Assembly: GCA_945882615.1 (NCBI GenBank)
Contig: CAMCWK010000003.1
Coordinates: forward strand, 1 to 64,000
Length of the DNA: 64,000 bases
Reading direction: 5' to 3'
From: Rhizobium sp. Q54
Lineage (GTDB): Bacteria > Pseudomonadota > Alphaproteobacteria > Micropepsales > Micropepsaceae
Both the position numbers and the translations under genes were made by a program. Of this stretch, positions 5,810 through 16,676 are shown piece by piece; position 1 is the first letter of the stretch; each line of letters starts with the position of its first letter. The notes beneath the pieces are model-generated. The model saw only the letters and a program-made list of their open reading frames with translations. It made no database searches and was not told the origin of the DNA.

Positions 5810-7654
5810 GTGGCGCAGGACGTGCAAAACAATTGGCTGGACCGCCCGGTAGACAGCCGCCTGGACCACACGCTGGGCCCGGAGCAGGCCGAGATCACGC
5901 TGGTCGAGTATGGCAGCTATGACTGCCCGCATTGCCGCGCGGCGAATGAGCGGATCATCCAGGTCCGCGACCAGCTGGGCGACCGGCTGCGCTATGTCTT
6001 TCGCCACCGTCCCGTCACCGGCAGCGACATTGCGCGCCGCGCCGCCGAACTGGCCGAGCATGCCCGCGACGCGCAACATTTCTGGGAAGCCCATGTCGCG
6101 CTGATGTCGCGCTCGGCCAGGCTAACCGAAGAGGATCTGCAGACCGTCGCCCGCGATCTGGGGCTGCAGCATGAAGCGCCCGCAGAGGCCGAGGAGGGCA
6201 ACCGCGTCGCCCAGGCGCGCGTCAATGCCGATATCGCCAGCGCGCGGGCCAGCGGCGTGCTGGTGACGCCGACCTTCTTCATCAATGGGCGCCGCTATGA
6301 CGGGCCGTGGGACGAGACATCCTTCTCCGACGCCATGCTGGGGCGGCTGGGTCACCGGGTGCGCGCGGCGGCGCTGGACTTTGCGGGCTGGGCGCCGTCG
6401 GCGGGCATCCTGCTGTTGGTCGCGGCGCTGCTGGCGGTCGCGCTGACCAATTCCCCGGCCGGTCCTGCCTTTCCGGCCATGTGGCATCAGTATCTGGGCG
6501 TCAGCCTGGGCGATGCGGCGTTCCGCATGTCGGCGCTGCACTGGATCAATGACGGCCTGCTGACGATCTTTTTCCTGGTGGTGGGGCTGGAGATCAAGCG
6601 CGAATTCACCATCGGCCATCTCGCCAGCCCGCGCGCCGCCGCGCTGCCCATCGCCGCGGCCATCGGCGGCATGGCGGTGCCGGCGCTGCTTTATTCGCTG
6701 GTCATCCCGGACGGAAATCTCGCCCATGGCTGGGGCGTGCCGATGGCCACCGACACCGCCTTCGCCGTCGCGCTGATCGTGATGATGGGCAGCCGCGTGC
6801 CGGTCGAGCTGCGCATCTTTCTGACCGCCGCCGCCATCGTGGACGATATCGGCGCCATTGCCGTGGTGGCGGCCTTCTATTCCGGCGCGCTCAATCTTTT
6901 CTATCTGGCGGGTGCGGCCGGCATCACCCTGGTGCTGGCGCTGCTGAATCGCGCCCGCGTTTACAGCGTGGTGCCGTATGCGTTTCTGGGGTTGGGGCTA
7001 TGGGCCTGTGTTTACGGTGGAGGGCTCCACGCCACGCTGGCCGGCGTGATCCTGGCGATCTTCATTCCCACCCGTCCGCCGCCGAACATGAAGGCGTTGA
7101 TGATCCAGGCCAACACAATCATTGCCGCCGAAGCGCTTCACCGGGACGAAGTGCTGCGTGGGGGCCCCTCGACGCCGGCCCTGCGCGCGCTGGATGCCAT
7201 TCACGATCGGCTGGAATCGCCGGCCGACCGGCTGCTGCGCCATGCCGGCGCGCGCTCCAGCTATCTCGTCCTGCCGCTTTTTGCCTTCGCCAATGCGGGC
7301 GTGGTTCTGGGGATGCAGGCGCTGCAAGGCCATCAGCCGCTGATGCTTGCCATCATGGCAGGACTGGTGATCGGCAAGCCCCTGGGACTGGTTGGTGCGT
7401 CCGCGCTGGCGGTGTGGCTGGGCATTGCGGCAAAGCCGCTGGCCTATTCCTGGCGGCAGATGGCCGGCGCCGGCGCACTGGCGGGCATCGGCTTCACCAT
7501 GTCGCTGTTCATCGCGGGGCAGGCTTTCGCGGACCCGGCGGATTTCGCCGCCGCAAAGATCGCGGTGTTCGCGGCCTCGGTGCTGTCGGCGCTGATCGGC
7601 GTGGCGGTGCTGTGGAATGCCAAGCGGCCGGAGGGATCCGAAGAGGCGGGGTGA
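5810..7654 (+). CDS. nhaA: DsbA/thioredoxin domain fused to Na+/H+ antiporter NhaA
   Basis: A 614-residue fusion. Residues about 1-180 are a DsbA-like thioredoxin fold with active-site C39-P-H-C42 and the cis-proline block [16 protein letters not shown]. Residues about 190-605 are an NhaA antiporter with about 12 membrane segments, including the ion-binding Asp pair in [19 protein letters not shown] (D345-D346) and [12 protein letters not shown]. NhaA exchanges Na+ or Li+ for protons at alkaline pH. No signal peptide precedes the thioredoxin domain, so it should be cytoplasmic if the antiporter keeps its normal topology. GTG start at 5810 follows AGAGGATCGGA. Redox control of transport is inference. 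Confidence 0.92.
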
Positions 7655-7722: not shown

Positions 7723-7761
7723 CAGTTTTCGTAAGCGCGCTTCGCGCGCTAACGAAAACTG
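7723..7761. repeat. Long inverted repeat abutting the tRNA-Arg 3' end
   Basis: CAGTTTTCGT (7723-7732) pairs with ACGAAAACTG (7752-7761). After one A:A mismatch, AGCGCGC pairs with GCGCGCT around a TTC loop, giving a stem of about 17 pairs. On the tRNA strand it begins at the CCA end. It may act in 3'-end formation or be a mobile palindromic element; there is no clear T-tract. Confidence 0.6.
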
Positions 7762-7836
7762 GCGCACCCGATAGGATTCGAACCTATGACCTTCGCCTTC
7801 GGAGGGCGACACTCTATCCAGCTGAGCTACGGGTGC
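7760..7836 (-). tRNA. tRNA-Arg (anticodon CCG)
   Basis: On the minus strand the 77-nt gene folds as a standard cloverleaf. The acceptor is GCACCCG/CGGGTGC, the anticodon loop CTCCGAA has anticodon CCG (reads CGG, Arg), and the T-loop is TTCGAAT. The 3' CCA is encoded (7760-7762). The start at 7836 is set by the acceptor stem. Confidence 0.95.
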
Positions 7837-7873: not shown

Positions 7874-8950
7874 CTAAAGCGCCGCCAGCGCCTGGGCGAC
7901 GGTCCGCTGCGCCAGGGCCCAGGCCGCCTGCTTCCAGGCCGGATTGTCGCCGTAAAATGCGTCCCGCATGACTTTCGAAATCTCGGCCGCGCGGCGGTCG
8001 TCCGGGGCGAAGTGGTCCTGCCAGTTGGCCAGCCGCAGGGCCCGTACCATCTGGTCCAGCGGAACCGTGCCCACTTCCAGCGCTGCAAACGTCAGCTCCG
8101 CGGCCGGCAGGAACCGGGCAATGCCGTCATCGATGGTGCCGTTCAGCGGCGCGGACAGCGACTCTCCCGCGCTGGTGGAGGCGGCCATCGCGCCCCAGAT
8201 CGCCTTTGCGCGCTGATGTGCGGGGCTGCCGACAGCGGCTTCCAGAATCACTTCGCCGCTGCCCGATTCCCCAAGGCCGGTGTGGAAATCCACCACAAGG
8301 ACGTTTTTCGCGCGCGACAGGTCCTCGCGCAGAACCGCCTGCAGCATTTGCGACGACCAGCTTTCCTTGTTGCCGCCGTAAAAAAGTCCATCCCGATGCT
8401 TGTACTGGCCGGCGCTGACCGCCTGCTGCCATGCGCCGCGGCCGTGCCTCGCCGCATAAGCAGCCATTGCAGCGTCCGCCTTGGCGAAGCCGGCATCGCT
8501 GACATCGCGCAGCGCAATCGCTTCTGCCAATTCGTCATAGCCGGGATTGGCCGGAGGATGGGCGTAGTCGACAAAATTGCGGTTGATGTCGACATTGTTC
8601 TCGTCCACCCGCCGATTCCAGGCGAAGCCGAAGGGATTGAGGGCATGGATCATCACCAGCCGGGCGCCTTGCGGCGGCGCCGCGCCACTGGCGACCAGCC
8701 CGGTCAGAACGCCGGAGCCGAAATACCCTTCCACCCCATGGGTGCCGCAGATCAGCAGCAGCGCCTTATGTGCGGTGCGCGGTCCCATGGCGCAGACGTC
8801 CAGGAAGAGCGGCTTGCCGTCCGGGCCTTTGGCGCAAGGATGCACGCGGCTAATCACATCCACGCCGCGCAACGCGCAGGCGGCGATGAAGGCCTTGCGC
8901 GCGCCGCGATAGTCTTGCGGGAAATAGCTTTCCGGAGATGTGCTCATCAT
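7874..8950 (-). CDS. DUF2817 family M14-like zinc carboxypeptidase
   Basis: A 358-residue protein. [17 protein letters not shown] supplies the His and Glu of an HxxE zinc site. [11 protein letters not shown] and [12 protein letters not shown] (third metal His) are in the order expected of M14-type carboxypeptidases of the DUF2817 group. The substrate is not known. There is no evident signal peptide. The ATG lies only 14 nt from the start of the divergent VanX-like dipeptidase, so both promoters must overlap the opposite coding regions; the pairing of two peptidases suggests a shared peptide-catabolic role (inference). Confidence 0.86.
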
Positions 8951-8964
8951 CCTAGTCTAGCGGC

Positions 8965-9750
8965 ATGACCCCCTTCGGCGCATTGGAAGAATTGCGAAAC
9001 CGCCCCATCGGCGACCAGGCGCCGCCGCGCGCCGCCCGGCAAGGCTTTCGCCAGCGCATCGCGCTTGCTTCGGATAACGCCCTGTTCGGCGAGCCGGTGG
9101 TGGAAGCGCGCGCCCTGGGCCTGGCGGGCGAGAATTTCTATGCCAGCAGCCGCAACCCGCCCTATTGGCAGCCCATAAATGGTGCGACCGAAAAATTGTG
9201 GTTGCGCCGCACGGCGGCCGAAAAACTGGCGCGGGTCAATGCCCGCGCCGGCGCGGTTGGCCTGGAGCTGTTCCTGTTCGACGCCTGGCGGCCACGCAGC
9301 GTTCAGGCCTATTTCCATGACGTGTGGATGCCGCAGGAATTGAAGCGGCGCGGCAGCACGCTGTCCGGCGCCGCGCTGAACGAAGAGGTGGAACGCTATT
9401 GGGCCGCGCCCACCGATGATCCGGGTTCGCCCGCGCCCCATGCCACCGGCGCGGCGACGGATCTCACTTTAAGATGGAAGAATGGCGAGGCGCTGTGGAT
9501 GGGCTCGCTGTTCGACGATGTCACCGCGCTGGCGCATCGCGACCGCTTTGAATCGCTCAGCAGCGAAAACTTTTCCTTCTCCGACCAGGAAGCGCGCGCC
9601 AATCGCCGCCTGCTGCACTGGTTGATGACCGAGGAAGGCTTTGCCGGCCACCCCGATGAATGGTGGCACTTTTCCTGGGGCGACCAATTGTGGGCGGCGC
9701 TGACCGGCGCGCCCGCCGCGCATTACGGGCTGGCGGTTATTCCCGAATAG
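8965..9750 (+). CDS. M15 family D-alanyl-D-alanine dipeptidase (VanX/DdpX-like)
   Basis: A 261-residue protein with the VanX-type zinc site: PHATGAATDLTL supplies His and Asp, and EWWHFSWG supplies the catalytic Glu and third His ligand. The substrate-binding Arg is in LFLFDAWRPRSVQAYFHD. These enzymes hydrolyse D-Ala-D-Ala; chromosomal copies serve peptidoglycan-dipeptide recycling rather than glycopeptide resistance. No vanHA-type genes are present. It is divergent from the DUF2817 peptidase, and its stop abuts the convergent cyclase-like gene with no spacer. Confidence 0.88.
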   Translation: MTPFGALEELRNRPIGDQAPPRAARQGFRQRIALASDNALFGEPVVEARALGLAGENFYASSRNPPYWQPINGATEKLWLRRTAAEKLARVNARAGAVGLELFLFDAWRPRSVQAYFHDVWMPQELKRRGSTLSGAALNEEVERYWAAPTDDPGSPAPHATGAATDLTLRWKNGEALWMGSLFDDVTALAHRDRFESLSSENFSFSDQEARANRRLLHWLMTEEGFAGHPDEWWHFSWGDQLWAALTGAPAAHYGLAVIPE

Positions 9751-11889
9751 CTATTCCAATATTGGACGAAAAGCACCGTCCCAGTCGGAGCCGGGCGGAT
9801 GTTTTTCGAAATAGGCGATCCGCGTCAGATGCAGGTCGTACAGCTTCTGGCTGGCGCCCGACAGGCGGCGGCACTGCGCGATCAGTTCGCGCGCCATTTG
9901 CCATTGCTGCTTGCGGATGGCCTGGAAGATATGATCGTGAAACACGGTCAAGGCGCGGAACTTGGGCGAGGCGCGATACACCGATGAGCCCATGATGGCG
10001 TAAAGCGTGGAGGGCGCGTCCTTGGCGCCCTGCGCGATGGCGTCGACCTCCAGAAAGGCAAAGCCACGCTCGGCGGCGCGCTTTGTTTCGTCGGCCACGA
10101 TCAGCGCCGGGCCATACTGATGCGACAGCGCCTGGATATGGCCCGCCATCGTCACCGCGCCGCCATGAACGCTGTAGCCCATCCGGCCATAGCCGCCGAA
10201 CCCGCCGGCAATGACCTGGCCGCTGGCGATGCCGATGCCGATCTCCACCAGTGGCGGCGCATCGGGCCCGCGATATTCCTGCGCCAGCTCTTCGTTGACG
10301 CGCGCCGCCATGATCGCCATGCCATTGGCCGCCTCGCAGGCATGCAGCGCATGATCGGCCTCATCCAGCGGCGCGTTCCAGAAGGCGGCGAAACCATCGG
10401 CGGTCAGCCGGTCGATGGTTCCGCCATGCGCCAGCGCCTGGTCGATCAGCGGCGTCAGCACCTTCTGCATCAGGCGCGTAAAACCGGCGGCGTCGTTGTG
10501 ATAATCCGCCGCCAGCCCCGAAAGGCCGCGCACGCCGCACACCAGATAGGTCACGGTGCGGATTTCGCCGTCGAGATTGAGCAGGGCCGGGCGGCGCGCG
10601 ATCTTTTCGATGGTGGCGCGCGGCAGGGAATCGGAAAACGCCATGCGCAAGCCGGCATAGGCCATGCGCTGATCCTGGATATAGGCCGCCGCGCCTGCGC
10701 CAAAGGCCAGCATCAGCCCCAGCGCCGGGCTGGCCGCATCCATCAACAGCCCCTGCTGCATGAAGAGATACCAGGACAGTGCGAACAGCGCGGCGCCGCC
10801 GCCCATCGCCAGGCCGGCCGCCCAGCCCAGGCCAAACCGCAGCAGGAAAATCATGCCCGCGCCCAGCACCAGCAGAGCTGCGGCTTCGGCCACCACCATC
10901 CAACCCGGACGCCGCAACACATCGCGCCCCAGAAGATTCTCGATCGCTTCGGCCGTCACGCTGGCAAGGCTGGCGGCGCCGAAAGGCGTCTGCACCATCG
11001 CGCCCTGCTGTCCCACCACCACGATCATGTCCTTCAGCGTTACGGGGTTCAGCGCATTGGGATTGAGGATTTGCGCGGACATGTTGGCCGCATAGCGCAG
11101 CCAGAAGCGTCCGTCGCTGCCGGTGGCAATGGCGCCGCCCTCCGTCTCCAGCGCGGCGATACCGACGCCGGCAAAGAAGCTCAGCGGGTTGCGCTCATCG
11201 CTGATGACGGTGATGTCGGGCTTGTCCTGCGCCACCCGCAAGGCTTCCGCCGTCATTCCCGGCACCAGCATCGTGTCCACCCGCACCGCCAAAGCGGCGC
11301 GGCGCACCACACCGTCGGCATCGGGCATCAGGCCGGCAGCGGCCGACCCCGCCGCATGATTCTCCAGCAGAGCCAGCGGCGCGGCGGCGGTGTCAAAGCG
11401 CGGAACCTTGGAAAACGGATCGCGGCTGCCGCGATAGACGAAGCGCGCCTTGACGCGGGGCGCGCGGCCCTCCGCCCCCAGCGTTACCGGCACGATGCCA
11501 GCAACGTCCTGCAGCGCCACGGCAAGCGCGTGTCCGGGTTCGGGCAGCTGGGCCAGTGCGGCGCGCGCCGCCTTGTCTCCGGGCGGCAGTTTGGCGGAAA
11601 GGCTTTGCGGTGAGGGCCCGTGTTGCAGCGGGGCGGTGAACACCACAAGCCGCGCGCCGGCCAGAAGGCGCGTCACCCGGACCAGGCTGTCCTCATCCAT
11701 GGAAGGCAGGTCGAGCACCCGGACCGGCAGGGCGGACGGCGCGCGCGGGGCATGGCGCTGATAGGCGTCGAACAGCCGGTTGCCGAGGGCGGATGGAAGG
11801 CCGAATCCGTCCAGCACAATCATGCCCACACCCAGCGCCAGAAACAGCGCGGGCGCCAGCAGCACGCTGATGGGCCGGGACCAGGTCAT
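9751..11889 (-). CDS. CHASE2 domain protein with degenerate class III cyclase domain
   Basis: A 712-residue protein from ATG 11889 (a GTG at 11928 adds 13). It has an N-terminal membrane helix, an extracytoplasmic CHASE2 sensor region, three C-terminal membrane helices (about residues 340-410), and a class III nucleotide-cyclase-like domain. Key catalytic residues are changed. The first metal Asp of the usual F-x-D-I motif is Gly (YLVCGVRG, G452). The base-specifying and transition-state motif reads MGYSVHGGAVTMAGHI, without the usual Asp, Asn and Arg. The second metal Asp is kept (TADGF, D498). It is therefore probably catalytically inactive and acts as a sensor or partner subunit (inference). 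Confidence 0.85.
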   Translation of the reverse strand: MTWSRPISVLLAPALFLALGVGMIVLDGFGLPSALGNRLFDAYQRHAPRAPSALPVRVLDLPSMDEDSLVRVTRLLAGARLVVFTAPLQHGPSPQSLSAKLPPGDKAARAALAQLPEPGHALAVALQDVAGIVPVTLGAEGRAPRVKARFVYRGSRDPFSKVPRFDTAAAPLALLENHAAGSAAAGLMPDADGVVRRAALAVRVDTMLVPGMTAEALRVAQDKPDITVISDERNPLSFFAGVGIAALETEGGAIATGSDGRFWLRYAANMSAQILNPNALNPVTLKDMIVVVGQQGAMVQTPFGAASLASVTAEAIENLLGRDVLRRPGWMVVAEAAALLVLGAGMIFLLRFGLGWAAGLAMGGGAALFALSWYLFMQQGLLMDAASPALGLMLAFGAGAAAYIQDQRMAYAGLRMAFSDSLPRATIEKIARRPALLNLDGEIRTVTYLVCGVRGLSGLAADYHNDAAGFTRLMQKVLTPLIDQALAHGGTIDRLTADGFAAFWNAPLDEADHALHACEAANGMAIMAARVNEELAQEYRGPDAPPLVEIGIGIASGQVIAGGFGGYGRMGYSVHGGAVTMAGHIQALSHQYGPALIVADETKRAAERGFAFLEVDAIAQGAKDAPSTLYAIMGSSVYRASPKFRALTVFHDHIFQAIRKQQWQMARELIAQCRRLSGASQKLYDLHLTRIAYFEKHPPGSDWDGAFRPILE

Positions 11890-11960
11890 GAAGCACCCAA
11901 GCGGCGGGAAAAGCCCCGCGCCAGGCACCCTATTATCGTTAATGGGACGCGGCTAGGCCG

Positions 11961-12395
11961 CTACTTCGCCGTAACCCGGATTGCCACTTGGGCCAGCAGA
12001 ATTCTCGCGCCTTTTTTCTTCAGGGCGCGGTCCGTGACCGCCTGCAGGCGGTCGGCGATGGCCCCGACATCGGGCTGGGTATCGGTGCGCACCACATTGG
12101 CGGTGAAGGCCATCAGGTTGCGGATATAGGCGTCGCGCAGCACCGGCAACGAGCGGGTCACGATCTCGCGCATTTTCTCGTCCGGCACATCGATGCCCGC
12201 GCCCACCATCAGCATTCCGCTGGCGCGGTTGTCGGCCACGATGGTGGTGTAGATCGGGTCCACCATGATGTAGCTCTTGGACTGGGTGGTTTTATGCTCG
12301 GGCGCCTTCTGGGCCTTGTCGCCACTGTCGGCGGCACGCACCGGCGAAACAGCCAGGGCGGCGAACAGCATAGCGGTCAGGGGCAGCTTCATCAT
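11961..12395 (-). CDS. Secreted hypothetical protein, FliL-like
   Basis: About 144 residues with a signal peptide (MMKLPLTAMLFAALAVSPVR, then AA). The mature part, with SYIMVDPIYTTIVADNRASG and regularly spaced hydrophobics through RSLPVLRDAYIRNLM, resembles the periplasmic part of FliL-type proteins. No flagellar genes are nearby, so the resemblance does not establish a flagellar role. A start at 12446 would place the signal sequence internally and is less likely. It is transcribed toward the cyclase-like gene, 71 nt upstream of it on the same strand. Confidence 0.72.
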   Translation of the reverse strand: MMKLPLTAMLFAALAVSPVRAADSGDKAQKAPEHKTTQSKSYIMVDPIYTTIVADNRASGMLMVGAGIDVPDEKMREIVTRSLPVLRDAYIRNLMAFTANVVRTDTQPDVGAIADRLQAVTDRALKKKGARILLAQVAIRVTAK

Positions 12396-12542
12396 GGCCG
12401 CCAGTAAGCGCGCGATTGGTAAATCGAATTTTAACGGGGCGCGCAAAAGGCCGAAATGGCCGGGTGAGGGCCGGTTTGCGGGCTGCTGGCAGGCCGAGGC
12501 GCGGTGACGTTAAGGTCGGTCCGGAGCGCCATCCTGAGAGGA

Positions 12543-12618
12543 TGGTGGAGCTGAGCGGAATCGAACCGCTGACCTCCTCATTGCGAACGAGGCGCTCTCC
12601 CAACTGAGCTACAGCCCC
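12543..12618 (-). tRNA. tRNA-Ala (anticodon CGC)
   Basis: The minus-strand 76-nt cloverleaf has acceptor GGGGCTG/CAGCTCC, which includes the G3:U70 wobble pair that defines alanine tRNAs. The anticodon loop TTCGCAA gives CGC (reads GCG). The 3' CCA is encoded at 12543-12545. Confidence 0.96.
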
Positions 12619-12718
12619 GAACCGAGCGCGGTTTTTAGGGATGGGGGCTGGGGCCGTCAAGCCAGCCCAGATTTTCAGGCTTTTCGGACCAAGTTCCTGC
12701 CGCTACAAGGGAATCACC

Positions 12719-13015
12719 ATGATGATGAACCCAATCGCCGCCCTGCTGATCCAGGTCCTGGAAATCTACAAGTGGATCCTGATCGCCTCCGTGATCGTGA
12801 GCTGGCTCACCGCCTTCAACGTCATCAATGTCCATAACAATTTCGTCCGCAGCCTGCTGCGCATCCTGCTGGCGCTGACCGAACCGGTGCTGGCGCCCAT
12901 CCGCCGCATCCTGCCCGCAATGGGGGGGCTGGACCTGTCGCCCATCGTGGTTTTCGTGCTGATCTGGTTCCTGCAATATACGATCCGCTGGGCGTCGTTT
13001 AACTACGGGCTATAG
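12719..13015 (+). CDS. YggT family membrane protein
   Basis: A 98-residue protein with two hydrophobic spans (ALLIQVLEIYKWILIASVIV and LSPIVVFVLIWFLQYTI). Between them lies the YggT block SWLTAFNVINVHNNFVRSLLRILLALTEPVLAPIRRILP. YggT proteins are linked to septum or cell-shape maintenance and osmotic tolerance, but the mechanism is unclear. ATG 12719 follows AAGGGAATCACC and is preferred over an upstream start at 12641, which would overlap tRNA-Ala leader sequence. It ends 4 nt before folD, so the two form an operon. Confidence 0.9.
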   Translation: MMMNPIAALLIQVLEIYKWILIASVIVSWLTAFNVINVHNNFVRSLLRILLALTEPVLAPIRRILPAMGGLDLSPIVVFVLIWFLQYTIRWASFNYGL

Positions 13016-13019
13016 CGCC

Positions 13020-13907
13020 ATGACCGCCACGGTGATCGACGGCAAGGCCAGCGCCGCCAGGCTGCGCGAGAAGATCGCGGCCTATACCGCCGAGCTCAAG
13101 GCCAAGCACAATCTGCAGCCCGGGCTGGCCACTGTGCTGGTCGGCAAAGACCCGGCCTCGGAAGTCTATGTCCGCAACAAGCGCAAGACGGCCGAAGCCA
13201 TCGGCTTCAAGTCGGTGCATGTCGAACTGCCCGCCGATGTCACGCAAGCCGAACTCTTGTCCCATGTGAAGGCGCTGTGCGCCGATACGAGCGTGCACGG
13301 CATCCTGGTGCAATTGCCGCTGCCCAAGCATCTCGACGAGGCCGCGGTGCTGGACGCGCTGGACCCGGCCAAGGATGTCGATGCGCTGACGCCGACCAAT
13401 GCCGGGCTGCTGCTGTCGGGCCGCGCCCATCTGGTGTCCTGCACGCCCGCCGGCGTGATGCTGCTGTTGAAAGAATATGCCGGCGACATCGCCGGCAAGG
13501 AAGCGCTGGTGATCGGTCGCTCGCTCTTGTTCGGCAAGCCGGCGGCGCAGTTGCTGCTGGCGGCCAATGCCACCGTGACCATGGCCCATTCGCGTTCCAG
13601 GGATTTGCCTGGACTGGCGCGCCGCGCCGATATTCTGGTGGCGGCGATCGGCAAGCCGGAATTCGTCAAGGGCGACTGGGTCAAGCCGGGCGCGACTGTA
13701 ATCGATGTCGGCATCAACCGGGTCGATGCGGGCGAAGGCAAAACCAAGCTGGTCGGCGACGTGGATTATGAATCCGCGAAGGCTGTTGCTGGCGCCATCA
13801 CGCCGGTGCCCGGCGGGGTGGGCGCCATGACCATCATCTGCCTGATGCACAACACGCTGATTGCGGCGTGCGCGCAGCACGGCCTGCCACTGCCCAAGGC
13901 TCTCTAA
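13020..13907 (+). CDS. folD: Bifunctional methylenetetrahydrofolate dehydrogenase/cyclohydrolase FolD
   Basis: A 295-residue enzyme that converts 5,10-methylene-THF to 10-formyl-THF using NADP+, supplying formyl groups for purines and initiator tRNA. The signatures are VGKDPASEVYVRNKRKTAEA (catalytic Lys region), VHGILVQLPLP, KDVDALTPTN, the NADP-binding VIGRSLLFGKPAA, and the C-terminal PVPGGVGAMT. The usual FolD wording is G-R-S-x-I-V-G; here LLFG replaces it, a modest variation. It starts 4 nt after yggT. Confidence 0.97.
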   Translation: MTATVIDGKASAARLREKIAAYTAELKAKHNLQPGLATVLVGKDPASEVYVRNKRKTAEAIGFKSVHVELPADVTQAELLSHVKALCADTSVHGILVQLPLPKHLDEAAVLDALDPAKDVDALTPTNAGLLLSGRAHLVSCTPAGVMLLLKEYAGDIAGKEALVIGRSLLFGKPAAQLLLAANATVTMAHSRSRDLPGLARRADILVAAIGKPEFVKGDWVKPGATVIDVGINRVDAGEGKTKLVGDVDYESAKAVAGAITPVPGGVGAMTIICLMHNTLIAACAQHGLPLPKAL

Positions 13908-13908
13908 C

Positions 13909-14037
13909 TCACCATGGTCGGGCTGGACCCGGCCATCCATCTTGATTGTCGTGCTGGCGCGCGACGCTGGATGGGCGGCTCGTGAAGTTTACCCTCCGAC
14001 CGCGCTTCGCGCGGTTCGGGGGGCCGCCCATGGTGAG
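13909..14037. repeat. Palindromic intergenic element with terminal 10-bp inverted repeats
   Basis: CTCACCATGG (13909-13918) and CCATGGTGAG (14028-14037) are perfect inverted ends. Inside are GGTCGGGCTGGACCCGGCC-type and CGCGCTTCGCGCG hairpins. It fills the gap between the convergent folD and senC genes, so it may also act in transcription termination. It has no coding content. Confidence 0.65.
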
Positions 14038-14041
14038 GAGG

Positions 14042-14653
14042 TCAGGTCTTCGCTTTCAGGTCTTTGGCCAGATCGTCAGGCGAGATCGCTTCGGTGTAGA
14101 AGTGGATCACCTTGCCGTCTGGCCCCACCAGATACATCACATTGGAATGGTCGACGCCGTAGTTGCCACCCTTCGGCGCTTCGCCCTGTGGCTGCTTGAC
14201 GGCATAGACGCGGAATTTCTTCTCGACTTCCTTTATCTCCGCCACGCTCCCGGTCAGGCCGACGAAACTGGGGCCGAAGGCTTTCACATACTCCGCCAGG
14301 ACCTCGGGCGTGTCGCGTTCCGGGTCGACGGTAATGAGGACCGGCACGATCTTCTTGGCATCGGGCCCCAACTGGTCCAGCGCCTCGGCCATCACCGCCA
14401 AAGTGGTGGGACAGATATCCGGACAGTAAGTGAAGCCGAAATAGATCAGCATGTAGCGGCCGCGGAAATCACTATCGCCGCGCGGCTTGCCGGTATGGTC
14501 GGTCAGGCGGAACGGTCCGCCCACTTCCATCTTGCCGGTCGAGACGACGCGGCCCAGCCGCGGCACCTGCTCGCTCTGATACCACAGCAGGCCCCCCGCC
14601 AGCGCGGCGACCAGCAGCAGGTAAGGAATCAGGGCTTGCTTGTTGCGCAGCAT
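14042..14653 (-). CDS. senC: SCO1/SenC/PrrC family copper-binding protein
   Basis: About 203 residues, with an N-terminal membrane anchor (ALIPYLLLVAALAGGLLWY) and a thioredoxin fold. The copper ligands are visible: TYCPDICPTT (CxxxC) and the distal His in VDHSNVMYLVGPDG. SCO proteins deliver copper to the CuA site of cytochrome oxidase or act as thiol oxidoreductases. The gene is divergent from regB, and in Rhodobacter-type loci the same protein (SenC/PrrC) links oxidase status to the RegB/RegA system. ATG 14653 puts the anchor at the N-terminus; a start at 14719 would run into regB. Confidence 0.94.
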   Translation of the reverse strand: MLRNKQALIPYLLLVAALAGGLLWYQSEQVPRLGRVVSTGKMEVGGPFRLTDHTGKPRGDSDFRGRYMLIYFGFTYCPDICPTTLAVMAEALDQLGPDAKKIVPVLITVDPERDTPEVLAEYVKAFGPSFVGLTGSVAEIKEVEKKFRVYAVKQPQGEAPKGGNYGVDHSNVMYLVGPDGKVIHFYTEAISPDDLAKDLKAKT

Positions 14654-14712
14654 GCTTTTTCCGTTCGGCTGGCCATGCTCTAATCCGGATTGCCTTTCCA
14701 GGGAAGCATTCA

Positions 14713-16101
14713 GTGGCACGCAAGGAAATGACCCGGGGCTTTGCCCAGGGTGCGGGCGGTGGCCGCCGGGTGCGCCTGCGCACCTTGTCCAACCTGCGCT
14801 GGCTGGCGATTGTCGGCCAGTCGGTTGCCTTGTTCCTTGTCTATTTCGCGCTCGGCTATCCCTTGCCGATTGTCCATTGCGCTCTTGCCATCGCTGTCAG
14901 CGCCGCGCTCAACATCGTGCTGGCGCTGCGCTATCCCGCGGCCCATCGCCTGACCAATCGCGAAGCCACATTCTATCTGGCCTTTGACGTGCTGCAGCTG
15001 GCGGCGCTGCTGTATCTCACCGGCGGCCTGGCCAATCCCTTCGCCCTGATGTTTTTGGGGCCGGTGGTGATCGCCGCCACCACCCTCAATCTGGGCAATG
15101 TGCTGATCCTGGCCTTCATCGCCTTTGCCTCGGTGTCGGTGATCGCCATCGAGCATCAACCGCTGCCCTGGCCGGCAGGTGACGTCCTGTTGTTGCCCCA
15201 GCTTTACCAGGCAGGCATCTGGACCGCGCTGGTGATCGGCATTGGCTTCACGTCTGTTTATGCCTGGCGCATCGCATCGGAATCGGCGCGCATGTCGGCG
15301 GGTCTTGCCGCCACCCAACTGGCGCTGTCGCGTGAACACCGGCTGGCGGCGCTGGGCGCGCTGGCCACGGCGGCGGCGCATGAACTGGGCACGCCGCTCG
15401 GAACCATCGCGGTGGTGGCGCGCGAGCTGGAACGCGCCCTGCCGGAAAACTCCGCCGAGATTGAGGATGTGCGCCTTCTGCGCGCCCAGGCCGAACGCTG
15501 CCGCGCCATCATCGCGCGCCTGGCCAATCCCGAAGAGGCGCTGCTGGGCGCCACCGCGCGGCTGCCGCTGGGCGCGCTGCTGGACGATATCGCCGCGCCC
15601 CATCGCGGCGAGGATCTGGAAATCCTCGTCACCGTCGCCGCTCCCCCCTCTTCCGAAACAAAGGCCGACGCGCCGGTGCCGCAAGTTTGGCGGGCGCCCG
15701 AACTGCTGCACGGACTGGGGAACATCATCGAGAATGCCGCCGACTTCGCGCATTCCCTGGTGGCGGTACATGCCGAGTGGGACGACCAGCAACTGCGCAT
15801 TTCGGTGACCGATGACGGCCCGGGTTTCGCGCCGGAAATCTTCGAGGCGCTGGGCGAACCCTACATCACCTCGCGTCCCGGCCATCATGCGCTGTCCGAA
15901 ACCGAGATCGGCCCGCAGGGCGCGCTGGACGAACATGAAGGCATGGGCCTGGGCTTCTTTATCGCCAAAATCCTGCTGGAACAGACCGGCGGCGTGGTTA
16001 AGGCCGACAATCCGCCGGGTGGGGGGGCGCAGGTTTCGGTGCGTTGGCCCCGGGGGGTGATCGACGGGGTGCAGCCTCCGGCCCAGAGCGAACCGGCCTG
16101 A
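14713..16101 (+). CDS. regB: Redox sensor histidine kinase RegB/PrrB/ActS
   Basis: A 462-residue kinase with six N-terminal membrane segments. The quinone-binding heptapeptide GGLANPF (residues 104-110) is intact. The H-box AAAHELGTPLGTIAVVAREL carries phosphoacceptor H223, and the redox-active cysteine lies in AERCRAII (C263). These match RegB numbering closely. HATPase motifs follow (NIIENAADFA, DDGPGFAPEIFE, GMGLGFFIAKILLE). It senses ubiquinone redox state and phosphorylates RegA. GTG start at 14713 follows CCAGGGAAGC. The order senC-regB-regA is the classical alphaproteobacterial one. Confidence 0.97.
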   Translation: MARKEMTRGFAQGAGGGRRVRLRTLSNLRWLAIVGQSVALFLVYFALGYPLPIVHCALAIAVSAALNIVLALRYPAAHRLTNREATFYLAFDVLQLAALLYLTGGLANPFALMFLGPVVIAATTLNLGNVLILAFIAFASVSVIAIEHQPLPWPAGDVLLLPQLYQAGIWTALVIGIGFTSVYAWRIASESARMSAGLAATQLALSREHRLAALGALATAAAHELGTPLGTIAVVARELERALPENSAEIEDVRLLRAQAERCRAIIARLANPEEALLGATARLPLGALLDDIAAPHRGEDLEILVTVAAPPSSETKADAPVPQVWRAPELLHGLGNIIENAADFAHSLVAVHAEWDDQQLRISVTDDGPGFAPEIFEALGEPYITSRPGHHALSETEIGPQGALDEHEGMGLGFFIAKILLEQTGGVVKADNPPGGGAQVSVRWPRGVIDGVQPPAQSEPA

Positions 16102-16142
16102 AAGTTTGACGGTTTGGAAAAAGGGTACTAAAGGCCCCCGCA

Positions 16143-16676
16143 ATGACCGGCGAAGACAAGACACTGCTTCTGGTCGAAGATGACCGCCCGCTTCGGGAAC
16201 GCTTGGCCCGAGCGCTGGAAACCCGTGGTTTTACCGTTTTCCAGGCGGAGTCGGTTGCGGAGGGCAAGGCCCACGCCAAGGACACGCCGCCGGCCTATGC
16301 CGTGGTCGATCTCAAGCTGGACGATGGCAATGGGCTGGACGTGGTGGAGACGTTGCACACCACCCGCCCTGACAGCCGGGTGGTGGTGCTGACCGGCTTC
16401 GGCAACATCGCCACCGCGGTCGCCGCCGTGAAATATGGCGCGATTGATTACCTGCCCAAGCCCGCCGATGCCGATGATATCCTGGCGGCGCTGATGGCGG
16501 TGCCGGGCTCCAAGCCCAAGCCGCCGGAAAATCCCATGTCGGCCGACCGCGTGCGCTGGGAACATATCCAACGGGTCTATGAACTGTGCGGCCACAATGT
16601 TTCGGAAACGGCGCGCCGGCTCAACATGCATCGCCGCACCTTGCAGCGCATTCTGGCGAAACGCTCGCCGCGCTAA
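16143..16676 (+). CDS. regA: Redox response regulator RegA/PrrA/ActR
   Basis: A 177-residue response regulator. The receiver domain has the acidic pocket (VEDD), phosphoacceptor D56 in VVDLKLDDGNG, and the conserved Thr and Lys (VLTGFG, YLPKPAD). A short proline-rich linker and a Fis-type HTH follow (GHNVSETARRLNMHRRTLQR), almost invariant among RegA homologues. It controls respiration, redox metabolism and often carbon or nitrogen fixation genes in response to RegB. Its stop overlaps the convergent PAP2 gene stop by 4 nt. Confidence 0.97.
   Translation: MTGEDKTLLLVEDDRPLRERLARALETRGFTVFQAESVAEGKAHAKDTPPAYAVVDLKLDDGNGLDVVETLHTTRPDSRVVVLTGFGNIATAVAAVKYGAIDYLPKPADADDILAALMAVPGSKPKPPENPMSADRVRWEHIQRVYELCGHNVSETARRLNMHRRTLQRILAKRSPR

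Follow-up and report, generated by a model that had tools for sequence, protein, structure and literature searches.

A CHASE2 receptor with an apparently dead class III cyclase domain, retained in Rhizomicrobium with its constraint shifted towards the C-terminal tail

The gene considered here lies in a 64,000-nucleotide stretch of DNA, referred to below as the window (contig CAMCWK010000003.1, positions 1 to 64,000), which belongs to a genome of 2.85 Mb that I will call G000. Its genus is Rhizomicrobium, assigned by NCBI to the Micropepsaceae (Micropepsales). The gene is on the minus strand, within a block flanked by two tRNA genes. The features of the block are as follows, with the basis of each assignment in parentheses where there is one to give.

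7760-7836, minus strand: tRNA-Arg (ccg), flanking the block
7874-8950, minus strand: DUF2817 protein, a neighbor common to dead and active orthologues (PF10994, E 1.3e-100)
8965-9750, plus strand: peptidase M15 (D-Ala-D-Ala dipeptidase family), convergent neighbor (PF01427, E 3.6e-22)
9751-11889, minus strand: protein of 712 aa with CHASE2, transmembrane, apparently dead class III cyclase and C-terminal tail regions (open reading frame, Pfam, alignment, model)
9763-9969, minus strand: C-terminal helical tail, residues 641-709, where conservation within the dead clade is highest (conservation, dN/dS, model)
9988-10578, minus strand: apparently dead class III cyclase domain, residues 438-634, limits approximate (phmmer, alignment with CyaB, column comparison, Foldseek)
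10810-11727, minus strand: CHASE2 region, residues 55-360 from the ATG, limits approximate, extending into the second transmembrane helix (Pfam, model)
11961-12437, minus strand: small secreted-looking protein, weakly FliL-like, with several possible starts (NCBIfam PRK07021 FliL, E 3.5e-4, far below cut-off)
12543-12618, minus strand: tRNA-Ala (cgc), flanking the block

The open reading frame of the receptor begins with ATG at 11889 and reaches the end of its stop codon at 9751; an alternative GTG start at 11928 would give a protein of 725 aa. From its N-terminus, the protein runs through one membrane helix, CHASE2, three more membrane helices and a class III cyclase fold, and it ends in a helical tail. 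The AlphaFold2 model (mean pLDDT 91.4, pTM 0.76) places helices at residues 7-26, 331-352, 354-379 and 386-418, with CHASE2 between the first and the further transmembrane helices, and gives the tail helices at 642-659, 663-675 and 681-696. CHASE2 is matched above cut-off by Pfam PF05226 (E 1.2e-15; residues 91-356 of the 725-aa form, or 78-343 counted from the ATG). The match to the cyclase model PF00211 (Guanylate_cyc) is above cut-off in the genome search and slightly below it in the protein's own Pfam search (E 0.001, 19.1 bits against a cut-off of 21.9). The first-pass annotation had called the class III fold recognizable, and this is borne out by phmmer, which aligns the protein with solved class III cyclases, by the model, and by Foldseek, in which the model matches chains of Cya2, CyaB and CyaC with TM-scores (by target) of 0.80-0.88.

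The same annotation held that the first metal Asp, the base-selecting Asp and the transition-state Asn and Arg had all been substituted, leaving the second metal Asp as the sole survivor. Aligned with CyaB (3r5g), the window protein indeed has Gly in place of both the first metal Asp and the base-selecting Asp, Thr for Asn and His for Arg, and keeps the second metal Asp; the base-selecting Lys, a loss that had gone unmentioned, is replaced by Arg. The six positions are Gly452, Arg494, Asp498, Gly571, Thr580 and His584, so that one canonical catalytic residue in six is kept. Misalignment of the motifs was considered and rejected: phmmer and MAFFT give identical residues, and the model, which is confident and finds Cya2, CyaB and CyaC in Foldseek, confirms the fold and argues that the motifs are not misplaced. 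With the protein aligned to active cyclases and its fold modeled, the substitutions stand, and no catalytic residues are placed elsewhere.

The loss extends far beyond the window. A family-wide alignment, which omits G075 and G102 from the genus and G097, G108, G109 and G112 from elsewhere in the family, has no first metal Asp in any of the 61 rows of the dead clade (51 have Gly there) and has it in all 24 rows called active, a class assigned by sequence only. The dead rows comprise 58 from Rhizomicrobium and three from the sister genus g26; fragmentary copies in G025 and G065 were excluded from the residue tallies and from the tree. None, zero to be exact, of the six catalytic residues is kept in eight dead rows, one in 21, two in 26 and three in six, with no row above three, while active rows keep five (3 rows) or six (21 rows), the base-selecting Asp being missing in three of the 24. 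Of the 61 dead rows, 49 have an acidic residue at the second metal site and 40 have the transition-state Arg, although the window protein has His there. The first metal position, for its part, is Gly in 41 of the 42 full-length dead rows. In the family's other genera, all 13 copies have the full set of six. A scan of named-species genomes, for which the best 80 among 570 confirmed stretches were kept, gave 12 loci that belong to the dead type; the remaining 68 have the first metal Asp.

On the tree, a single clade (SH-aLRT 100 in a quick search) unites the dead rows and stands beside the orthologues of other genera; the placement of the long rows G087, G090 and G003 is flagged as unsure. A private mutation or sequencing error was rejected as the source of the substitutions, since the loss is found in 61 rows. 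To judge from the aligned residues, then, the catalytic set is missing throughout Rhizomicrobium and g26 and intact in the sister genera, and the description "apparently dead" holds for the whole clade at the level of sequence. Two CHASE2 cyclases of other families, L044 (G044) and L046 (G039), also lack several catalytic residues; when added to the tree they fall with the dead clade (SH-aLRT 85, long branches), and they may or may not share the same loss. The copies in sister genera look orthologous to the dead receptor by sequence and by the position of DUF2817, and since all of them have the six residues and 8 of the 11 with enough flank have DUF2817 within 4.5 kb, the ancestor of the dead clade was probably a working enzyme.

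In order to assess selection on the domain, pooled Nei-Gojobori dN/dS was calculated for eight close dead pairs and three active pairs. The dead pairs give 0.17 for CHASE2, 0.13 for the transmembrane part and linker, 0.069 for the cyclase domain and 0.039 for the tail; the active pairs give 0.10 (with dS saturated at 2.4), 0.18, 0.067 and 0.164, respectively. The dead domain is therefore about as constrained as the intact one (0.069 versus 0.067), and these ratios show that purifying selection has continued on the apparently dead fold. In the closest pair that includes the window, G000/G063, the cyclase domain has a ratio of 0.20, as compared with a range of 0.03-0.11 across the seven others, and the tail one of 0.04, from which it appears that the window's lineage may be relaxing further.

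The pattern of constraint along the protein differs between the two classes. Mean pairwise identity among the 42 full-length dead rows is 42% in CHASE2, 64% in the cyclase domain and 78% in the tail, whereas the 13 active sisters give 49%, 67% and 42%; the tail is thus the least conserved part in the active sisters and the most conserved in the dead rows. A wider control, drawn from the best 80 of 570 stretches, gives 61% for the cyclase domain and 38% for the tail in 68 active loci, as opposed to 64% and 77% in 12 dead loci. On a fixed tree, the ratio of tail to cyclase branch length is 0.74 for the 42 full-length dead rows, 0.53 for 15 dead rows lacking CHASE2, and 3.59 for the 13 active sisters. 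A homologous C-terminal tail is present in the aligned active loci.

Individual positions were compared over residues 410-712 in 42 dead and 20 active rows, with gained constraint defined as a single residue in at least 95% of dead rows and in fewer than 60% of active rows. Constraint was gained at 34 positions, 22 of them within the 68-residue tail (Fisher p 1.7e-8, positions treated as independent). It was lost at 25, including the pocket positions 494 (Lys), 497 (Gly of the metal loop), 498 (Asp), 571 (Asp) and 580 (Asn), and position 452 went from Asp in active rows to a nearly fixed Gly in dead rows. These comparisons show the predicted helical tail to have become the most constrained part of the protein in the dead clade. 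Since the dS of the tail in dead pairs (0.45) equals that of the cyclase domain (0.46), the signal is mainly at the level of protein, though both values are lower than those of CHASE2 (0.62) and the transmembrane part (0.60). A DNA or RNA element or an antisense reading frame is accordingly not favored by the rates as the cause of tail conservation, and some DNA or RNA constraint on the tail is a lesser possibility, given a dS below that of CHASE2 and the transmembrane part.

The tail is matched in 62 of 69 genomes of the genus. No match came from G008, G018, G036, G068, G073, G099 and G103; two of these seven, G008 and G099, exceed 90% completeness. Several tail residues have been lost in G020 and G024. 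A profile search of the tail against the PDB gave no match up to E 10, and Pfam gave sub-threshold matches only (TPR_14 in 2 of 22 members, best E 0.095). No binding partner of the tail was found. Two candidates for stand-alone tail genes were rejected: a match of 126 aa in G075 stops at the end of its contig, and one of 128 aa in G102 starts 144 bases from the start of its contig. The notion that the tail was remodeled before catalysis was lost was also dropped, as the tail of G093, the nearest active row on the tree, is 45% identical to the dead consensus, no higher than several distant active rows. In G031, a partial second copy of 34 tail codons lies downstream of the dead gene (L007/L050).

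Other parts of the protein come and go. CHASE2 presence, which was set by length (with G088, which begins at the start of its contig, and G090, which has no hydrophobic segment, excluded), changes state seven times on the tree among the counted dead rows, and this distribution shows the presumed sensor to be dispensable, lost in about seven lineages. Fourteen genus rows without CHASE2 have their own N-terminus, with three to five hydrophobic segments by Kyte-Doolittle, a crude count that in the window protein finds two of the four model helices plus one segment inside CHASE2. Mean identity in the cyclase domain is 40% over 14 rows that lack CHASE2. The version in G090 is 298 aa long with no hydrophobic segments, and the copy in G025 is frameshifted. 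In L051 (G015), the small gene upstream is fused in frame to the dead cyclase domain, and in L218 (G065) to the tail alone, at a different junction. Both fusions look like deletions between neighbors, and may represent decay.

The small gene in question, the weakly FliL-like one, lies no more than 1 kb upstream at 18 of 38 dead loci and at none of 12 active sisters; its protein differs from the one on contig C19 that is this genome's own FliL match. The small gene was rejected as an obligate partner, because in G013, G021, G022, G027, G033, G062 and G100 it stands 3-6 kb off, and because none was found in the vicinity of active copies. On the other side, 24 of 38 dead loci have the M15 peptidase no more than 2 kb downstream, as do 0 of 11 active sisters; DUF2817 occurs up to 4.5 kb downstream in both classes, at 30 of the 38 dead loci and at 8 of the 11 active ones. 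For FolD, with a limit of 8 kb upstream, the figures are 21 of 36 dead loci and 0 of 11 active. Each count covers the loci with enough flanking sequence: of the 60 dead loci 38 (36 for FolD), and of the 13 active ones 11 (12 for the small gene). The peptidase and DUF2817 offer a hint of a connection with the cell envelope. Upstream of the receptor (window 12641-16676) are genes for YggT, FolD, SCO1/SenC, a sensor kinase and a response regulator, the last two presumably RegB/RegA-like. Beyond the tRNA-Arg gene, a single frame of 614 aa at 5810-7654 on the plus strand joins a DsbA-like thioredoxin domain to an NhaA-type Na+/H+ antiporter.

I consider the best explanation of these observations, with a probability of about 0.6, to be a fixed, still-selected pseudo-cyclase receptor whose output has moved to the tail, probably by way of protein binding. 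Catalysis would have been lost once, before Rhizomicrobium and g26 split. The dead domain, as a dimer or platform anchored in the membrane, may then present the tail, which may carry the output by binding a putative cytoplasmic protein, and CHASE2, where present, may tune that binding. Of the three roles offered in the first-pass annotation, the signaling scaffold fits best, given a fold under purifying selection and a constraint shifted to the tail, and its interpretation was in this part upheld; the other two, heterodimer partner and nucleotide sensor, fare less well, as described below. A broader version, in which a transmembrane second-messenger receptor came to bind protein instead, its tail becoming the output once catalysis was lost, and in which several lineages have discarded the sensor, the membrane part or the enzyme domain while the tail persisted, I put forward as tentative, at somewhat less than even odds.

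The shortened versions could also be read as stages of a slowly dying relic, which lost catalysis, then shed its sensor, membrane helices and dead domain, leaving a remnant with no function of its own. The seven changes of CHASE2 state, the frameshift in G025, the fusion stubs in G015 and G065, the 298-aa version in G090, the seven genomes with no tail match and the low identity (40%) of the cyclase domain in CHASE2-less rows are all what one would expect of decay. A relic is nevertheless unlikely in the face of dN/dS values near 0.07 (dead domain) and 0.04 (tail), a tail found in 62 of 69 genomes, and a tail better conserved in the dead clade than in intact enzymes. Equally unlikely is a sensor in which the dead pocket binds a nucleotide or other small ligand and the tail conveys the result. 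Such a sensor would account for a fold that is kept and models well, for conservation of the cyclase domain close to that of active sisters, and for the acidic second metal site (49 of 61), the transition-state Arg (40 of 61) and the near-fixed Gly at the first metal position (41 of 42). It is not supported by the pocket as a whole, however, where Lys, the base-selecting Asp, Asn, the metal-loop Gly and the second metal Asp have lost constraint (positions 494, 571, 580, 497 and 498).

Class III catalysis uses two subunits, and the protein might be the non-catalytic half of a heterodimeric cyclase that activates an intact partner. Retention of the transition-state Arg in 40 of 61 dead rows is in keeping with this idea, as is a PF00211 match away from the dead locus in 21 of 60 genus genomes. 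The window genome, estimated to be 100% complete, has no PF00211 match besides the dead gene, however, nor was a CYTH or class I cyclase found in it, and 39 of the 60 genus genomes, 37 of them with the tail, have no second PF00211 match (both figures are hand counts, and some of the genomes are incomplete). With no such potential partner found here or in much of the genus, and with the metal, base and Asn positions lost together, so that no complementary half-site is kept as a set, a heterodimer is improbable here, though it may apply in the other 21 genomes. Least probable of all is a cyclase still active through some unusual chemistry. Class III enzymes can tolerate single substitutions, and three of 24 active-type rows do without the base-selecting Asp, but the first metal Asp is missing from every one of the 61 dead rows and none retains more than three of the six residues. 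On the receiving side of a cAMP signal, the window genome has three proteins with a cNMP-binding domain. One is its sole Crp/Fnr-type regulator, nearest to FixK (NCBIfam, below the model cut-off) with CRP far behind, and the other two I take, by eye, to be patatin-like and thioredoxin-reductase-like; no CRP-like cAMP receptor was found in this genome.

The pseudo-cyclase receptor thus proposed is of interest on several counts. Among the genomes examined, most of those in Rhizomicrobium and some of those in g26 have kept a dead class III cyclase, intact orthologues in neighboring genera allow direct comparison, and the natural series of shortened versions shows which parts the new function may need. 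The shift of constraint from active site to tail offers a concrete place to seek that function. The version in related bacteria should make cAMP or cGMP, and retention of the dead receptor suggests signaling by another route.

Pseudoenzymes are a known kind of protein, and for bacterial second messengers the best-known examples are c-di-GMP proteins. No clade-wide dead CHASE2 cyclase with its constraint shifted to the tail appeared in the literature searched (open-licence full text, judged by titles and the openings of abstracts). Degenerate GGDEF/EAL proteins serve as receptors or scaffolds and are likewise members of a second-messenger enzyme family retained after loss of catalysis; they belong to a different enzyme class and often keep the ligand site, whereas the pocket positions vary in the dead cyclases. 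The C1 and C2 halves of mammalian adenylyl cyclase and the alpha subunit of soluble guanylate cyclase are, as here, class III folds without part of the catalytic set, but they pair with a complementary half, and none was found in the window genome. Closest in architecture are the CHASE2-domain adenylate/guanylate cyclases, such as CyaD1, CyaD2 and CyaK of Sinorhizobium meliloti (PMC13001267). These share with the window protein a CHASE2 receptor joined to a class III cyclase domain; the alignment itself covers the intact copies of sister genera. The protein of the window's clade differs from them in a setting where, in the window genome, no CRP-like receptor accompanies it, in the loss of its catalytic residues, in the repeated deletion of CHASE2, and in having the tail as its most conserved part.
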